A program made the position numbers and the translations under genes. From Alloyangia pacifica (GTDB lineage: Bacteria; Pseudomonadota; Alphaproteobacteria; Rhodobacterales; Rhodobacteraceae): a DNA stretch of 64,000 nt. The DNA is taken from assembly GCF_003111685.1 (NCBI RefSeq), contig NZ_CP022189.1:1008001-1072000 (forward strand), read 5' to 3'. The notes beneath the pieces are model-generated. The model did no database searches. It saw nothing but the letters and a program-made list of their open reading frames with translations, and was not told where the DNA came from. How positions within the stretch are numbered: position 1 is the first letter of the stretch; each line of letters begins with the position of its first letter. Below, piece after piece: positions 45,179 through 50,564 of this stretch.

Positions 45179-48100
45179 TCAGCCGAGCTCTGCGAGCCGT
45201 GCCAGCGCGTCGCGGAGCTTTGCCTCTTCCTCCTCGCGCGCGGCGAGGTTGTCGCGGGTCTCCTGCACCACCTCTTCCGGCGCGCTCTCGGCGAACTTGG
45301 GGTTCTTCAGCCGGCCGCGCAGGCCGCCGAGTTCCTTGGCGAGCTTCTGCAGCGCCTTCTCGAGCCGGGCCTTTTCCTCCTCGACATCGATGATCCCCGC
45401 CAGCGGCAAACCAAAGGTGCCGCCGCTCAGTGCCAGGGCCGCGGTGCCCTTGGGCATCTCCTCGACCTCGGTCAGGTCCTCGATCCGCGCGTAGCGCTTC
45501 ACGAAGGCCTCGTTGGTGGCATAGGCGGCGCGGGCCTCCGGCGTCAGCCCCTTGACCACGCAGGGCACGTAGGCGCCGGCGGGCACGTGCATCTGCGCGC
45601 GCGCCGAACGGATCGCCTCGATCATGCGGATCACCCAGTTGAGCTCGGCGTCGGCCTGCGCGTCGACCATCTCGGCCGCGGTGTACTCCGGCCAGTCGGC
45701 GTGGATCAGCATCTTCGGCCGCGCGCGCTGCGCCCAGAGCTCTTCGGTGACGAAGGGCATGATCGGGTGCAGCAGGATCAGGCACTGGTCGAAGGCCCAG
45801 GCGTAGGTGGCGCGGGTCTCGGCCTTGGCGGCCTCGTCCTCGCCGTGGAACACCGGCTTGGTGAACTCGAGGTACCAGTCGCAGAAGGTGCCCCAGACAA
45901 AGGCGTAGAGTGCCTGAGCCGCGTCGTTGAAGCGGTAGTCGGCCAGCGCCGCGTCCACCGCCTCGCGGGTCTTGGCGACCTCGCCCTTGATCCAGCGGTT
46001 GAGGGGCAGGGTGGTCTCGGGCACCGCATCGCTGTGGGCCAGCTCGAAGACGCCGTTCATCTGCGCGTAGGAGGCGGCGTTCCACAGCTTGGTGCCGAAG
46101 TTGCGGTAGCCGGCGATGCGCTGCATGTCGAGCTTCAGCACCCCACCGAGCGAGGCCATCGCGGCATTGGTGAAGCGCAGCGCGTCGGCACCGTACTCGT
46201 CGATGATCTCCAGCGGGTCGACGACATTGCCGAGCGATTTGGACATCTTCTTGCCCTTGGCGTCGCGCACGAGGCCATGCAGGTAGACGTCCTTGAAGGG
46301 GATCTCGTCCACCACGGCGAGCTGCATCATCATCATCCGGGCGACCCAGAAGAAGAGGATGTCCTGCCCGGTGACCAGAACGTCGGTCGGGAAGTACTTC
46401 TTCAGCTCCGGCGTCTGTTCGGGCCAGCCGAGCGTGCCGATCGGCCAGAGACCCGACGAGAACCAGGTGTCCAGAACGTCGGGATCGCGGAACACCGGGA
46501 TCGCCTGCGGCCGGCGGCGCTGGTCGACGCCGGTGTAATCCATGCCCTGCGACAGCAAGTCGGCAAGGTGATCCTCGGCGGCGGCGGCATCCTCGACGAT
46601 CAGGAACTCGGCATCCTCGCCAAAGACCGCCTTCATCTTCTCGATCGCCTCATCTTCCGAGGCGGCGCAGAACGAGCGCCATTCGTCGCCCATGCCCGGG
46701 GTGTGCCAGACCGGGATCTGGTGGCCCCACCACAGCTGGCGCGAGATGCACCAGGGCTCGATGTTCTCGAGCCAGTGGTAATAGGTCTTCTCGCCGCTCT
46801 CGGGCATGATCCGCACGCGGCCCTCGCGCACGGCGTCGAGCGCCGGGCCGACGATTTGCGCGGTGTCGACGAACCACTGGTCGGTGAGCATCGGCTCGAT
46901 CACCACCTTCGAGCGGTCGCCGAAGGGTTGCATGATCGGCTTGGACTCGACCAGCGGCACCCATTGTGCGGGCTCGTCCAGCGCCTCGCCGCCTTCCTCG
47001 GGCGCGACCGGAGCCTTGCCCGCGGCCTTTCCGAGGCGCGGGTCGGTCGCTTCGGTCATCACCGCGAGACCCTCGGCGGTGATCTCGGCGATCACCGCTT
47101 CGCGCGCCGCGAAACGGTCGAGGCCGCGCAGGTGGTCGGGAACGAGGTTCAGCTTGTCCGCCTCGTGCTCGTCGAGGTCCAGCTCGCCGCGGGCGACCTG
47201 CTGGGCGATCTCGGCGGCCTCGGCGTAAGGGTGTCCGTCCTCGCGCATGGCCCCGCGGGTGTCCATCAGCCGGTAGCAGGGGATGCCGCCGCGCTTGGCC
47301 ACGCCGTAGTCGTTGAAGTCATGCGCGCCGGTGATCTTCACCGCGCCCGAGCCGAAGGTGGGATCGGGGTATTCGTCCACGATGATCGGGATCAGGCGGC
47401 GGTGCTCTTTCGGACCCACCGGGATTTCGCAGAGCTTGCCGACGATGGGCGCATAGCGCTCATCCGAGGGGTGCACCGCGACCGCGCCGTCGCCGAGCAT
47501 GGTCTCGGGGCGGGTGGTGGCGATGGAGATGTAGTCCCGCTCCTCGGAGAAGAGCACGTTGCCGTCCTCGTCCTTCTCGACGTAGGTGTAGGTCTCGCCG
47601 CCCGCGAGCGGGTACTTGAAGTGCCACATGTGGCCCGGCACCTCGATGTTCTCGACCTCGAGGTCGGAGATCGCGGTCTCGAAATGCGGGTCCCAGTTCA
47701 CCAGACGCTTGCCGCGGTAGATCAGGCCCTTGTCGTACATGTCGACGAAGACCTTTATCACCGCGTCGTGGAAGTTCCCTTCCTCGCCCGCCGGCGCGCC
47801 CTCGGCCCCCGACATGGTGAAGGCGTTGCGCGACCAGTCGCAGGAGGCGCCGAGGCGCTTGAGCTGGTTGATGATCGTGCCGCCGGACTGCTGCTTCCAC
47901 TCCCAGACCTTCTCGAGGAAGGCCTCGCGGCCCATCTCGCGGCGGGTGGCGTTGTTCTTGTCCTTGGCCAGTTCGCGCTCGACGACCATCTGCGTGGCGA
48001 TGCCCGCGTGGTCCTGCCCGGGCTGCCAGAGCGTGTCGAAGCCGCGCATCCGGTGCCAGCGCACGAGGATGTCCTGCAGCGTGTTGTTGAACGCGTGGCC

Positions 48101-48259
48101 CATGTGCAGCGAGCCGGTCACGTTCGGGGGCGGGATCATGATGCAGAAGCTTTCATCGCGCGAGGCGTTGGCCCCGGCCTTGAAGGCTCCGCTGTCTTCC
48201 CACGCCTTGTAGATGCGCGCCTCGGCCTCGGCCGCGTTGAAGGTCTTTTCCATCGCCAT
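45179..48259 (-). CDS. valS: Valyl-tRNA synthetase
   Basis: 1026 residues from the ATG at 48259 (a second ATG two codons on is also possible); the longer open frame upstream is not family-like. Class I motifs: HMGH (52-55, the HIGH motif) and KMSKS (671-675). An editing domain lies between about residues 190 and 480, including '[21 protein letters not shown]', and a C-terminal coiled coil ('[19 protein letters not shown]') ends the protein. It charges tRNA-Val. Its start lies 147 bases downstream of the last hairpin of the CCUCCUCCC RNA array on the same strand. Confidence 0.97.
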
Positions 48260-48405
48260 GGCTGCGTTCCCATGCCTGCTTTGTGCTGTTGTCCGAACCC
48301 TCCTACCGAAAGGCTCGGCAAAGGGAAAGCGCCGCTTGCGCCCGGAGGGGCGTGGCGGGGCGCGCTTTTCGGCGCGGGGCAACTTGGCGGGAGTGGGAAA
48401 CGGAA

Positions 48406-48485
48406 AACGGCGGTGCCAGGGAGGAGGAGAGGCACCGCCGTTCCGTGTCACGAAAGCCCGAGGAGGAGGAGAAGAGGGGCTTCCG
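48406..48485 (-). ncRNA. CcsR-like RNA unit 6 (last; second hairpin terminator-like)
   Basis: First hairpin is a variant: stem 48454-48459 with 48477-48482 (extended past a mismatch to 48451/48485) and a longer loop reading CTCCTCCTCCTC instead of CCTCCTCCC. Second hairpin: perfect 12-bp stem 48406-48417 with 48431-48442, exact loop at 48418-48430, followed on the minus strand by a run of T (TTTT over the stem end), so it may also end the transcript before valS. Confidence 0.78.
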
Positions 48486-48520
48486 ATCCGGGCGGGCCCG
48501 AGACAGGCCCTATGTAGGGT

Positions 48521-48587
48521 GCGGCGATCTCAGGGAGGAGGAGAGAGATCGCCGCTGCATCGACGCCCCAGGGAGGAGGAGAGGGGC
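48521..48587 (-). ncRNA. CcsR-like RNA unit 5
   Basis: First hairpin: stem 48565-48569 with 48583-48587, loop 48570-48582. Second: 11-bp stem 48521-48531 with 48545-48555, loop 48532-48544. The stem has the same A-T pair as unit 2 and the spacer after it (48588-48633 on the plus strand) is a diverged copy of those near units 3 and 4. Confidence 0.82.
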
Positions 48588-48633
48588 TCCGAAGCTTCTG
48601 GAGCGGCCTTTGTCAGGCGCCCCGTTATCTGGT

Positions 48634-48700
48634 GCGGCGGTCTCAGGGAGGAGGAGAGAGACCGCCGCTGCATCGACGCCCCAGGGAGGAGGAGAGGGGC
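48634..48700 (-). ncRNA. CcsR-like RNA unit 4
   Basis: First hairpin: stem 48678-48682 with 48696-48700, loop 48683-48695. Second: 11-bp stem 48634-48644 with 48658-48668, loop 48645-48657. Its sequence is nearly the same as unit 3, pointing to recent tandem duplication. Confidence 0.82.
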
Positions 48701-48746
48701 TCCGAAGTTCTGGGGCGACCTTTGGCAGGAAGCCCCGGTATCTGGT

Positions 48747-48813
48747 GCGGCGGTCTCAGGGAGGAGGAGAGAGACCGCCGCTGCATCGACGCCCCAGGGA
48801 GGAGGAGAGGGGC
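48747..48813 (-). ncRNA. CcsR-like RNA unit 3
   Basis: First hairpin: stem 48791-48795 with 48809-48813, loop 48796-48808. Second: 11-bp stem GCGGCGGTCTC (48747-48757) with 48771-48781, loop 48758-48770. The stem differs from unit 2 by a compensated A-T to G-C pair. Together with its spacer it is nearly identical to unit 4. Confidence 0.82.
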
Positions 48814-48859
48814 TCCGAAGTTCTGGGGCGACCTTTGGCAGGAAGCCCCGGTATCTGGT

Positions 48860-48926
48860 GCGGCGATCTCAGGGAGGAGGAGAGAGATCGCCGCTGTATC
48901 GATGCCCCAGGGAGGAGGAGAGGGGC
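48860..48926 (-). ncRNA. CcsR-like RNA unit 2
   Basis: First hairpin: 5-bp stem GCCCC (48904-48908) with 48922-48926, loop 48909-48921. Second: 11-bp stem GCGGCGATCTC (48860-48870) with 48884-48894, loop 48871-48883. It is the first of four units repeated with a 113-bp period. Confidence 0.82.
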
Positions 48927-48961
48927 TGTCGATGTCTAGGCCTTGCGGCCCTTGTTCGTGT

Positions 48962-49033
48962 GGCGGTGACCTCAGGGAGGAGGAGAGAGGTCACCGCCGT
49001 AACGAACCGGCTCAGGGAGGAGGAGAGAGCCGG
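48962..49033 (-). ncRNA. CcsR-like RNA unit 1 (nearest the DUF1127 gene)
   Basis: First hairpin: 7-bp stem CCGGCTC (49007-49013) with 49027-49033, loop 49014-49026. Second hairpin: 12-bp stem 48962-48973 with 48987-48998, loop 48974-48986. Both loops carry the exact 13-base motif. It begins 15 bases after the DUF1127 stop codon. Confidence 0.82.
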
Positions 49034-49048
49034 GACGTGTTCGAATTC

Positions 49049-49252
49049 TTATGCCTCGTAGGCGGCCTGGTAGGCGATCCGGCGGATCATCGAGCGGTGC
49101 AGCCCAAGATCGCCCAGTTCGCGGTTGCTCAGCGCGGACAGCTCGCTGAAGGTCTGCTTGTACAGGCGGCGACGAGCGAGGGCAGTGCGGAAGCGCTCGA
49201 CGAGTCCTTCGGAGCGGCCTGCGATGCGGGTGGTGTCGGTTGCGTATGCCAT
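49049..49252 (-). CDS. ccaF1: DUF1127 protein, CcaF1-like
   Basis: 67 residues from the ATG at 49252; the open frame runs 27 codons further but without family likeness. The C-terminal half 'FSELSALSNRELGDLGLHRSMIRRIAYQAAYEA' (about residues 35-67) is the Arg-rich DUF1127 domain. In Rhodobacter sphaeroides the matching protein CcaF1 binds RNA and affects maturation of the CcsR RNAs encoded behind it. Here six such units follow on the same strand, 15 bases after the stop, so co-transcription is expected. No strong ribosome site is visible. Confidence 0.88.
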   Translation of the reverse strand: MAYATDTTRIAGRSEGLVERFRTALARRRLYKQTFSELSALSNRELGDLGLHRSMIRRIAYQAAYEA

Positions 49253-49304: not shown

Positions 49305-49333
49305 TAGATGGGCCAGATGCTGCGGTTGCACAA
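49305..49333 (-). promoter_or_regulatory. Candidate promoter of the DUF1127-small RNA operon
   Basis: On the minus strand TTGTGC (49333-49328) and CATCTA (49310-49305, in the context CCCATCTAT) are separated by 17 bases, predicting a start about 45 bases before the ATG. The CCAT-type -10 recalls heat-shock sigma (RpoH) promoters, which drive this operon in Rhodobacter. It is a visual match only. Confidence 0.45.
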
Positions 49334-49499
49334 TCCCGGGAGGGTTCAATGCCGCTATGCGCGAAATGCATGGGAAAAAGCGCTTTGGATTGCGCAAACA
49401 TGCGGGCTCGCGCACAAGATTTGGGCGGACCATGTCTGCGGTTTGCGCCTGGCGCAAGGTGACGCAAGGGTGGCATGCGCCCGAGGAAAGGAAGTGACC

Positions 49500-50564
49500 A
49501 TGACCCAATTGTCCGACGCCATCACCGAGCTGCTTGGCAGCTTCGATCTGCCCGGCGGGGGGACTCTGATCTCGCGTGACATGATTCGAGCGATGCGCGT
49601 CGAGTCCGGGCAGGTGGCCTTCGTGATCGAGGCGCCGAGCCCCGAGATCGCCCGCCAGATGGAGGGCTTCCGCGCCATGCTCGAGGCGCGCATCGCCGAA
49701 CTGCCCGGGGTGGAGACTGCCTCGGTCGTGCTCTCTGCGCCGACCCAGGCCCCCAAGGCGCCCTCGCTGAAACTCGGCGGCCACGCCAAGCCGCAGCAGG
49801 GTCGCATGATCCCGCCCGGGGTGAAGAAGCTTATCGCCATCGGCTCGGGCAAGGGCGGGGTCGGCAAATCGACGGTTTCCTCCAACCTCGCGGTGGCGCT
49901 GGCGCGCGCGGGCAAGACGGTCGGTCTGCTGGATGCCGACATCCATGGCCCGTCGCAGCCCCGGATGTTCGGCGTCTCGAAGCGCCCGGCCTCGCCCGAC
50001 GGCAAGACGATCATCCCGCTCGAGGCGCATGGCGTTACCCTCATGTCCATCGGCTTCATGCTGCCCGAGGACAAGGCGGTGGTCTGGCGCGGCCCGATGC
50101 TGATGGGGGCGCTGCAGCAGATGCTGATGCAGGTAGAGTGGGGCGAGCTCGACGTGCTGCTCATCGACCTGCCGCCGGGGACCGGTGACGTGCAGCTCTC
50201 GCTGGGTCAGAAGTCCGAGCTCGACGGCGCCATCGTCGTCTCCACGCCACAGGACGTGGCGCTGATCGATGCCAAGAAGGCGCTCGACGCCTTTGCGACG
50301 CTGAACGTGCCGGTGCTGGGGATGATCGAGAACATGTCTGCCTTCGTCTGCCCGGGCTGCGGCCTCGAGAGCCATATCTTCGGACATGGCGGCGTCGCGG
50401 CCGAGGCGGCGCGGTTGAACCTGCCGGTTCTGGCGCAGCTGCCGATCGACCTCGACACCCGCCTCGCGGGGGACGGCGGCGCGCCCGTGGCGCTTGGTGA
50501 CGGCGTTATGGCGCAGGCCTACGCCAAGCTGGCGCAGGAGTTGATCGCCAAGGGCGCGGTCTGA
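49500..50564 (+). CDS. Mrp/ApbC family iron-sulfur carrier ATPase
   Basis: 354 residues from the ATG at 49500, preceded by GAGGAAAGGAAG. Residues about 1-80 form the DUF59/MIP18-like domain; the deviant Walker A motif GKGGVGKST is at 117-125, 'LDADIHGPSQP' near residue 144, 'DVLLIDLPPGTGDVQLS' near residue 218, and the CPGC pair (Cys284, Cys287) that binds a bridging iron-sulfur cluster. It delivers clusters to target proteins. It is divergent from the DUF1127 operon. Confidence 0.93.
   Translation: MTQLSDAITELLGSFDLPGGGTLISRDMIRAMRVESGQVAFVIEAPSPEIARQMEGFRAMLEARIAELPGVETASVVLSAPTQAPKAPSLKLGGHAKPQQGRMIPPGVKKLIAIGSGKGGVGKSTVSSNLAVALARAGKTVGLLDADIHGPSQPRMFGVSKRPASPDGKTIIPLEAHGVTLMSIGFMLPEDKAVVWRGPMLMGALQQMLMQVEWGELDVLLIDLPPGTGDVQLSLGQKSELDGAIVVSTPQDVALIDAKKALDAFATLNVPVLGMIENMSAFVCPGCGLESHIFGHGGVAAEAARLNLPVLAQLPIDLDTRLAGDGGAPVALGDGVMAQAYAKLAQELIAKGAV

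Follow-up and report, generated by a model that had tools for sequence, protein, structure and literature searches.

A ccaF1-CcsR (cuckoo RNA) locus with six double-hairpin units in Alloyangia pacifica

In the genome of Alloyangia pacifica, a DUF1127 gene is followed by twelve minus-strand hairpins that form six pairs. Judged by its sequence, this is a ccaF1-CcsR (CIN1, cuckoo RNA) locus, a known kind of locus that is here real, conserved and well formed. The identification as CcaF1-CcsR had been proposed in an earlier note, and it is borne out by the gene order, the paired hairpins, the loop motif, the stem covariation on the right strand and the scores of the CcsR1 and ar14 models. The array is above average in size but ordinary for its family. 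Overall, we consider it quite probable that the locus encodes a stress-induced transcript of DUF1127 and CcsR RNAs whose loops act on Shine-Dalgarno sequences. New here are the survey of array sizes, the lack of a Shine-Dalgarno core in one lineage and the list of candidate targets.

Anatomy, strand and family of the array

Gene and array lie at 49252-48402 of the window, by which we mean the whole 64,000-nucleotide stretch of DNA that was analysed. The ccaF1-like DUF1127 gene (49049..49252 including the stop, minus strand) has 67 codons plus the stop and matches Pfam PF06568 with 49.6 bits (cut-off 23.3); the nearest relatives of its protein are from Alloyangia pacifica and Salipiger mangrovisoli (96% identity). 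The first hairpin begins 15 bases past the DUF1127 stop, and the hairpins together span 49033-48404. Two neighbours lie outside the locus: a valine--tRNA ligase gene (valS; 45179..48259, minus strand; NCBIfam NF004349, 1178 bits) and a divergent gene for an Mrp/ApbC-type Fe-S carrier (mrp; 49500..50564, plus strand; Pfam PF10609, 314 bits for a longer frame from 49308). Among 80 relatives, mrp is found within 3 kb in 33 and valS in 20, each of the 20 having both.

The earlier note had described twelve hairpins, eleven with the same 13-base loop and one variant, in six pairs behind the gene on the minus strand, and reading each hairpin confirmed this description. The loop UCUCCUCCUCCCU is identical over 13 bases in 11 of the 12 hairpins. 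These exact loops read TCTCCTCCTCCCT, with their first bases at 49026, 48986, 48921, 48883, 48808, 48770, 48695, 48657, 48582, 48544 and 48430, and they account for all 11 copies of the 13-mer on the minus strand of the window, the plus strand having none. Array stems have 5-14 uninterrupted pairs (G-U allowed); each pair of hairpins combines a short first stem (5 or 7 bp beside the loop) with a long second one (11-14 bp). All units are on the minus strand. Unit 1 (48958..49042) consists of the hairpins 49033-49007 and 48998-48962 and scores 42.8 bits (E 7e-9) with the Rfam model CcsR1; unit 2 (48855..48936) has the hairpins 48926-48904 and 48894-48860 and 47.1 bits. The same model gives 46.2 bits for both unit 3 (48742..48821; hairpins 48813-48791 and 48781-48747) and unit 4 (48629..48708; hairpins 48700-48678 and 48668-48634). 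The highest score is found for unit 5 (48516..48595; hairpins 48587-48565 and 48555-48521) with 50.9 bits (E 3e-11), and the lowest for unit 6 (48402..48493) with 38.2 bits (E 2e-7), which comprises the variant hairpin at 48483-48453 and the last hairpin at 48444-48404. The variant, the eleventh hairpin, has a 17-nt loop on a 7-bp stem; the core of this loop, TTCTCCTCCTCCTC, is kept at the same place in all four relatives compared (L020-L023), with one preceding base differing in two of them.

When the 681 bases are folded as one molecule, the minimum-energy structure contains the long hairpins, but several of the short hairpins (units 2-4 and 6) pair differently, partly with one another. The last hairpin ends in a T-rich stretch with more T-rich sequence behind it, and it probably doubles as an intrinsic terminator. 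It is absent from the list of a terminator scan, because the loop limit of that scan is 8.

The RNA nature of the array and its strand were assessed by covariation among hairpins with the exact 13-base loop. We examined 81 loci (the window and 80 relatives), of which 77 contributed 357 hairpins with 210 distinct stems. At stem positions 1-11, the proportion of Watson-Crick pairs is 0.65-0.90 compared to 0.29-0.75 for shuffled partners, where the highest shuffled value belongs to position 1, which is nearly always C-G. All four pair types are used at positions 3 to 11. The non-Watson-Crick cells at positions 1-11 comprise 230 G-U, 39 A-C and 292 other mismatches; at position 12, the usual end of the stems, there are 15 G-U versus 24 A-C. 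Since reading the opposite strand would swap G-U and A-C, the large excess of G-U over A-C points to an RNA read from the minus strand. We regard this covariation as good evidence that the array is RNA made from that strand.

The 13-mer has 19 copies in the 5.17-Mb genome, 11 of them in the array, and the reversed control pattern has none. This control, together with the stem covariation, rules out a chance repeat. We assign next to no probability to the idea that the array consists of GC-rich repeats without an RNA function, or that it is a coding repeat on the plus strand. Long open plus-strand frames do cross the array, but the repeat period of the middle units is 113 bases (read from the loop positions), which is no multiple of three, and the empty control is a further argument against the idea. 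Furthermore, the compensatory changes and the G-U excess indicate selection on pairing in minus-strand RNA, which contradicts both forms of the idea.

At gathering thresholds, the Rfam search returned no match in the window. With looser settings, CcsR1 (RF02791) detects all six units (38.2-50.9 bits, E 3e-11 to 2e-7; gathering score 65.3), and ar14 (RF02344) detects five places at 25.1-50 bits (threshold 58.8), none of them for unit 2. The earlier note had suggested a covariance-model search as a check: the model does score every unit, but every score lies below the curated threshold. That threshold is passed by CcsR1 in two of 20 related loci (L046, 87.6 bits; L092, 66.6 bits), in the first unit behind the DUF1127 gene, and ar14 passes its own in three of the 20 (L059, L132 and L135). 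Both loci with a CcsR1 match have the layout of the window, i.e. DUF1127, array and mrp. Thus, homology of the window's array to CcsR is very probable even though the units of this array remain below the curated score. The CcsR1 model looks narrow, and the units of the window appear to be relatives rather than formal hits.

Array size across the family

An array lies behind the DUF1127 gene in 79 of the 80 relatives. By a strict count, these arrays contain 4-13 hairpins, and once 22, with at least 12 in seven of the 80. The 19 near loci that we compared have 4 to 7 units, where single hairpins outside pairs are uncounted. Some loci of other genera show only two or three loop motifs, and the range across the family extends from 2-4 up to 26. 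This comparison of unit numbers across the Rhodobacteraceae had been suggested in the earlier note, which described the locus as expanded. The description holds in comparison to the four CcsR RNAs of Rhodobacter sphaeroides, but it does not make the array special in a family where 26 motifs are reached, and we therefore rejected the view that six units are an unusual expansion.

In a wider sample of 394 genomes from the family, nearly every one representing a different genus, the double motif is present in 295. In a hand count, 66 of the 394 genomes (that of the window included) have at least six motif pairs on the same strand; high control counts are seen in a few of these (e.g. G329, 10 versus 8), and pairs do not equal units where hairpins are packed closely. 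The largest array that we saw (L130; G183:C1:334000-337500) has 26 loop motifs, of which 20 sit on a stem with 5 bp or more without interruption, and consists to a large extent of a higher-order repeat, about 140 bases long, with three hairpins. In Primorskyibacter flagellatus, 22 of the array's 23 motifs have stems. With a few to 26 loop motifs within a single family, the survey offers a natural comparison for the question whether the number of loops matters.

Comparing units within and between arrays suggests how the array of the window grew. Units 1, 2 and 6 are more similar to their positional counterparts in the four relatives L020-L023 (identity 0.93-0.97) than to other units of their own array. 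Unit 5 matches the last-but-one unit of L022 and L023, which have six and five units, respectively, at 1.00 and 0.99; in the comparison with L020 and L021, which have four units each, its match does not exceed that of units 3 and 4 (0.88-0.90). Units 3 and 4 are 99% identical to each other. By these comparisons, the array has expanded in its middle, and the additional units seem to stem from tandem duplication in recent times. The earlier note had suggested that up to twelve loops per transcript may act as a titratable translational control. The duplications might also be neutral, with few units sufficing and the copy number drifting. The near-identity of units 3 and 4, the same-place counterparts of units 1, 2 and 6 (and of unit 5 in the two larger relatives), the existence of relatives with four, five or six units and the wide variation of array size in the family all agree with neutrality, while the extra units have intact loops and properly paired stems, which argues against it, though these units may be too young to tell. 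We rate neutral duplication at slightly below even chances. It concerns the copy number only and is compatible with our preferred explanation of the locus as a source of regulatory RNAs.

Promoter block, gene leader and candidate targets

A putative stress promoter precedes the DUF1127 gene at 49306..49333 (minus strand; TTGTGC at 49333-49328 and CCATCT at 49311-49306). The window has 19 bases between TTG and CCATCT, and most relatives have 17 before CCTAT. In 79 of the 81 loci aligned (the window and 80 relatives), the block TTGTGCANNYGCAGCA followed by CCTAT or similar is found at a distance of 69 to 179 bases upstream of where the match starts; the letters TTGTGC and GCAGC were fixed by the search anchor. 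The block roughly resembles the RpoH consensus and may be a promoter of this type, with the different spacing in the window counting against it. For R. sphaeroides, an RpoHI/RpoHII promoter has been reported at that place (PMC10253847).

An upstream element at 49347..49362 (minus strand) reads GCGCATAGCGGCATTG in the window and CTGCATAGCAGCATTG or near in most relatives (alignment of 79 of 81 loci). On the minus strand at 49362-49318, a palindrome upstream of the promoter block (in most relatives CTGCATAGCAG; the copy in the window is imperfect) accompanies GCAGCA inside the block, likewise in 79 of 81 loci. A further DNA-binding protein at the promoter block is suggested by this GCAGCA, which lies in the spacer, together with CTGC-ATA-GCAG, the upstream palindrome of most relatives. 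The upstream element resembles the operator of PhaR. The PhaR site in Rhodobacter is CTGCN3GCAG. For Bradyrhizobium, a PhaR site TGCRNYGCASMA has been reported (PMC6201568). A regulon defined by the promoter motif was not found among exact matches, to which the search was confined: the genome has two others, both inside apparent genes, and 69 matches with one mismatch. Heliomarina baculiformis (L087) alone among the 80 relatives has a DUF1127 gene that no array follows; the search for the promoter block was negative there as well, and the gene has a Shine-Dalgarno core.

The leader before the ATG of the DUF1127 gene in the window, CACACGGGTACAGAC, contains none of AGGA, GGAG and GAGG. Within the genus (30 fetched loci, from 20 genomes with 99 DUF1127 matches in all), such a core precedes none of 13 array-linked DUF1127 genes at any candidate ATG compared to all 17 fetched paralogues without an array, which is a high yardstick because ordinary frames of the window (at least 150 aa) have the core in only 11 of 24 by the same crude method. 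Among the 80 array-linked relatives, the core is found in 12 before any candidate ATG and in 10 before the nearest one. This is about what is expected for random 15-mers (14%, an estimate), and AGGAG or GGAGG is found in none of the 80. A further set of 37 array-linked genes, mainly from other genera, consisted of 35 of the 40 fetched loci listed by the motif search (five without a DUF1127 gene were dropped) and two from the paralogue search. Here, the core is present in 15 genes at the best start, a count that is too low as at least six best starts fall within the promoter block, or in 21 at any candidate ATG, compared to 25 of 28 paralogues (Fisher p 0.006 for 21/37 versus 25/28, which is nominal as the genes are related). 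Furthermore, AGGAG precedes the DUF1127 gene of the largest array (G183). The 15 to 21 genes with a core and the AGGAG of G183 weaken a general rule that array-linked DUF1127 genes lack a Shine-Dalgarno sequence. The missing core is thus strong in the lineage of the genus and a tendency elsewhere.

The simplest reading of the missing core would be that a transcript full of anti-Shine-Dalgarno loops fares better if its own gene is independent of that sequence. The computed pairing with a loop is -6.2 kcal/mol for the leader of a paralogue (approximate sequence) versus -5.4 kcal/mol for the leader of the array's own gene, so that an AGGA core by itself would hardly improve the pairing with the loop.

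Outside the array, the genome has eight copies of the 13-mer, two of which are start-site leaders read on the opposite strand. By eye, we found four solitary hairpin pairs, at C2:869555, C2:888365-888416, C3:454246 and C5:134853-134904 (L013, L014, L016 and L018). The contigs C2, C3 and C5 on which they sit have no DUF1127 match; all five DUF1127 matches of the genome are on C1, with an array in one of the two fetched. A second array was not seen among the 13-mer positions.

Sites complementary to the loop were then counted before start codons. The pattern GGGAGGAG occurs 4-11 bases before an ATG at 55 sites in the genome (one counted twice because of two ATGs) versus three for the reversed control. 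A Shine-Dalgarno pattern that matches the loop less, GAAAGGAG, occurs 32 versus eight times before an ATG. As GAAAGGAG is also enriched, any pattern of this kind should show sites before an ATG, and such sites do not prove targeting. The first 30 sites of each list yielded 25 (GGGAGGAG) and 29 (GAAAGGAG) frames of at least 50 aa. The GGGAGGAG frames include pdhA (TIGR03182, 514 bits), the solute-binding proteins L176, L181, L194 and L196, as well as UrtD, SoxA, gamma-glutamyltranspeptidase, an aldehyde dehydrogenase and a thiolase; for L200 the scan returned no name. No solute-binding protein was found among the 20 of 29 comparison frames that were scanned. These include four other transporter parts (L206, L225, L227 and L229) and a member of the glutathione-dependent formaldehyde-activating enzyme family (L202). 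What sets the two lists apart is thus the binding proteins and not transport in general. A crude pattern for signal peptides is matched by 14 of the 25 GGGAGGAG frames versus 4 of the 29 GAAAGGAG frames.

All 13 loop bases are matched by the leaders of two genes, L194 (C2:453999) and L017 (C3:493951). L194 is a sugar ABC transporter binding protein, and L017 has 374 codons and resembles, by eye, a mannitol-dehydrogenase-type reductase. Computed pairing with a free loop amounts to -26.8 and -26.9 kcal/mol for L194 and L017, respectively, -17.0 for pdhA and -10.1 for prfA. Across the family, at least seven complementary bases are found in 17 of 29 pdhA leaders versus one of 29 prfA leaders, and at least eight in nine of the 29 pdhA leaders (the 30 best loci of 61 genomes each, with one per set dropped for want of a start); this contrast is flattering, because the prfA Shine-Dalgarno sequence is weak in most of these genomes, which makes it an easy control. 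The complementarity of pdhA agrees with the effect of CcsR RNAs on the pyruvate dehydrogenase complex that has been reported in R. sphaeroides (PMC8307010), and by this analogy it is our best hint at a function. The leader without a core and the target list, with pdhA and the two genes with 13 matching bases, can be put to the test directly at the bench.

A more ambitious reading would join these observations into a translation brake whose strength scales with the dose of loops and which spares its own gene. Loops released under stress would shut genes whose Shine-Dalgarno sequence is rich in G (those for pyruvate dehydrogenase and for some solute uptake), the DUF1127 gene would escape in this lineage as it has no core, and the number of loops, raised to as many as 26 by duplication in the middle, would set the strength. 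We regard this as unlikely; the small difference between -6.2 and -5.4 kcal/mol and the core in only 11 of 24 ordinary frames lowered our estimate.

Proposed mechanism and comparison with known systems

The analysis above shows the anatomy, strand, conservation and complementarity of the array. For expression, processing and regulation, we propose the following course of events. A single stress-induced transcript, probably from an RpoH-type promoter, would carry the message for the DUF1127 RNA-binding protein and, in its 3' part, the six double-hairpin RNAs, with transcription ending at the last hairpin. For R. sphaeroides, it has been reported that RNase E releases the CcsR RNAs from the ccaF1 transcript by cleavage (PMC8307010, PMC8625941). 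By analogy, RNase E, aided by the DUF1127 protein, would cut the 3' part into double-hairpin RNAs. Each loop would then present CCUCCUCCC and pair with G-rich Shine-Dalgarno sequences, such that translation is slowed and selected mRNAs are destabilised. The predicted targets are probably pdhA and some genes of solute uptake and carbon catabolism.

The loops could instead mainly titrate an RNA-binding protein (the DUF1127 protein or Hfq) in the manner of CsrB and CsrA, with mRNA pairing being secondary. This would fit the many identical loops per RNA, whose number differs between species, and an array that shares its transcript with a gene whose counterpart in R. sphaeroides is an RNA-binding protein. 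In that species, raised CcaF1 is reported to interfere with CcsR maturation and CcsR RNAs to interact with Hfq (PMC8307010). We nevertheless consider titration improbable as the main role, since the loop is an anti-Shine-Dalgarno sequence, many start sites are complementary to it (55 versus 3) and pairs with the same loop stand alone on C2, C3 and C5 whereas all DUF1127 matches are on C1.

Two papers that list sRNAs of Ruegeria and Paracoccus do not contain the word CcsR. Titles and the openings of abstracts revealed no paper on arrays so large or on the missing Shine-Dalgarno sequence, which does not establish their absence from print.

CsrB titrates CsrA, and both CsrB and RsmZ are RNAs that sequester proteins. 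Like these RNAs, the array shows one repeated loop on many hairpins of a single transcript; unlike them, its loop is an anti-Shine-Dalgarno sequence, whereas the CsrA motif is GGA, and its counterpart in R. sphaeroides is cut into pieces. With alpha-r14/NfeR1 and the cuckoo RNAs of Rhizobiales (RF02344; SmelA075 and SmelA099), the array shares hairpins with CCUCCUCCC loops on divergent stems. Those RNAs are described as having 2-4 hairpins each and several copies spread over replicons (PMC3927594), whereas the window has twelve hairpins behind a DUF1127 gene. The predicted targets of NfeR1 are reported to be mostly ABC transport systems (PMC10746234).

The closest known system is ccaF1-CcsR1-4 of R. 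sphaeroides. In both, a promoter-like block precedes the DUF1127 gene, tandem RNAs with CCUCCUCCC loops follow it, and the locus closes with a hairpin whose end is rich in T. The DUF1127 protein has 67 aa here compared to the 71 aa given for R. sphaeroides (PMC10253847). The locus of the window differs in having six units instead of four and in that its units score below the curated Rfam value, a comparison made via the Rfam model alone.
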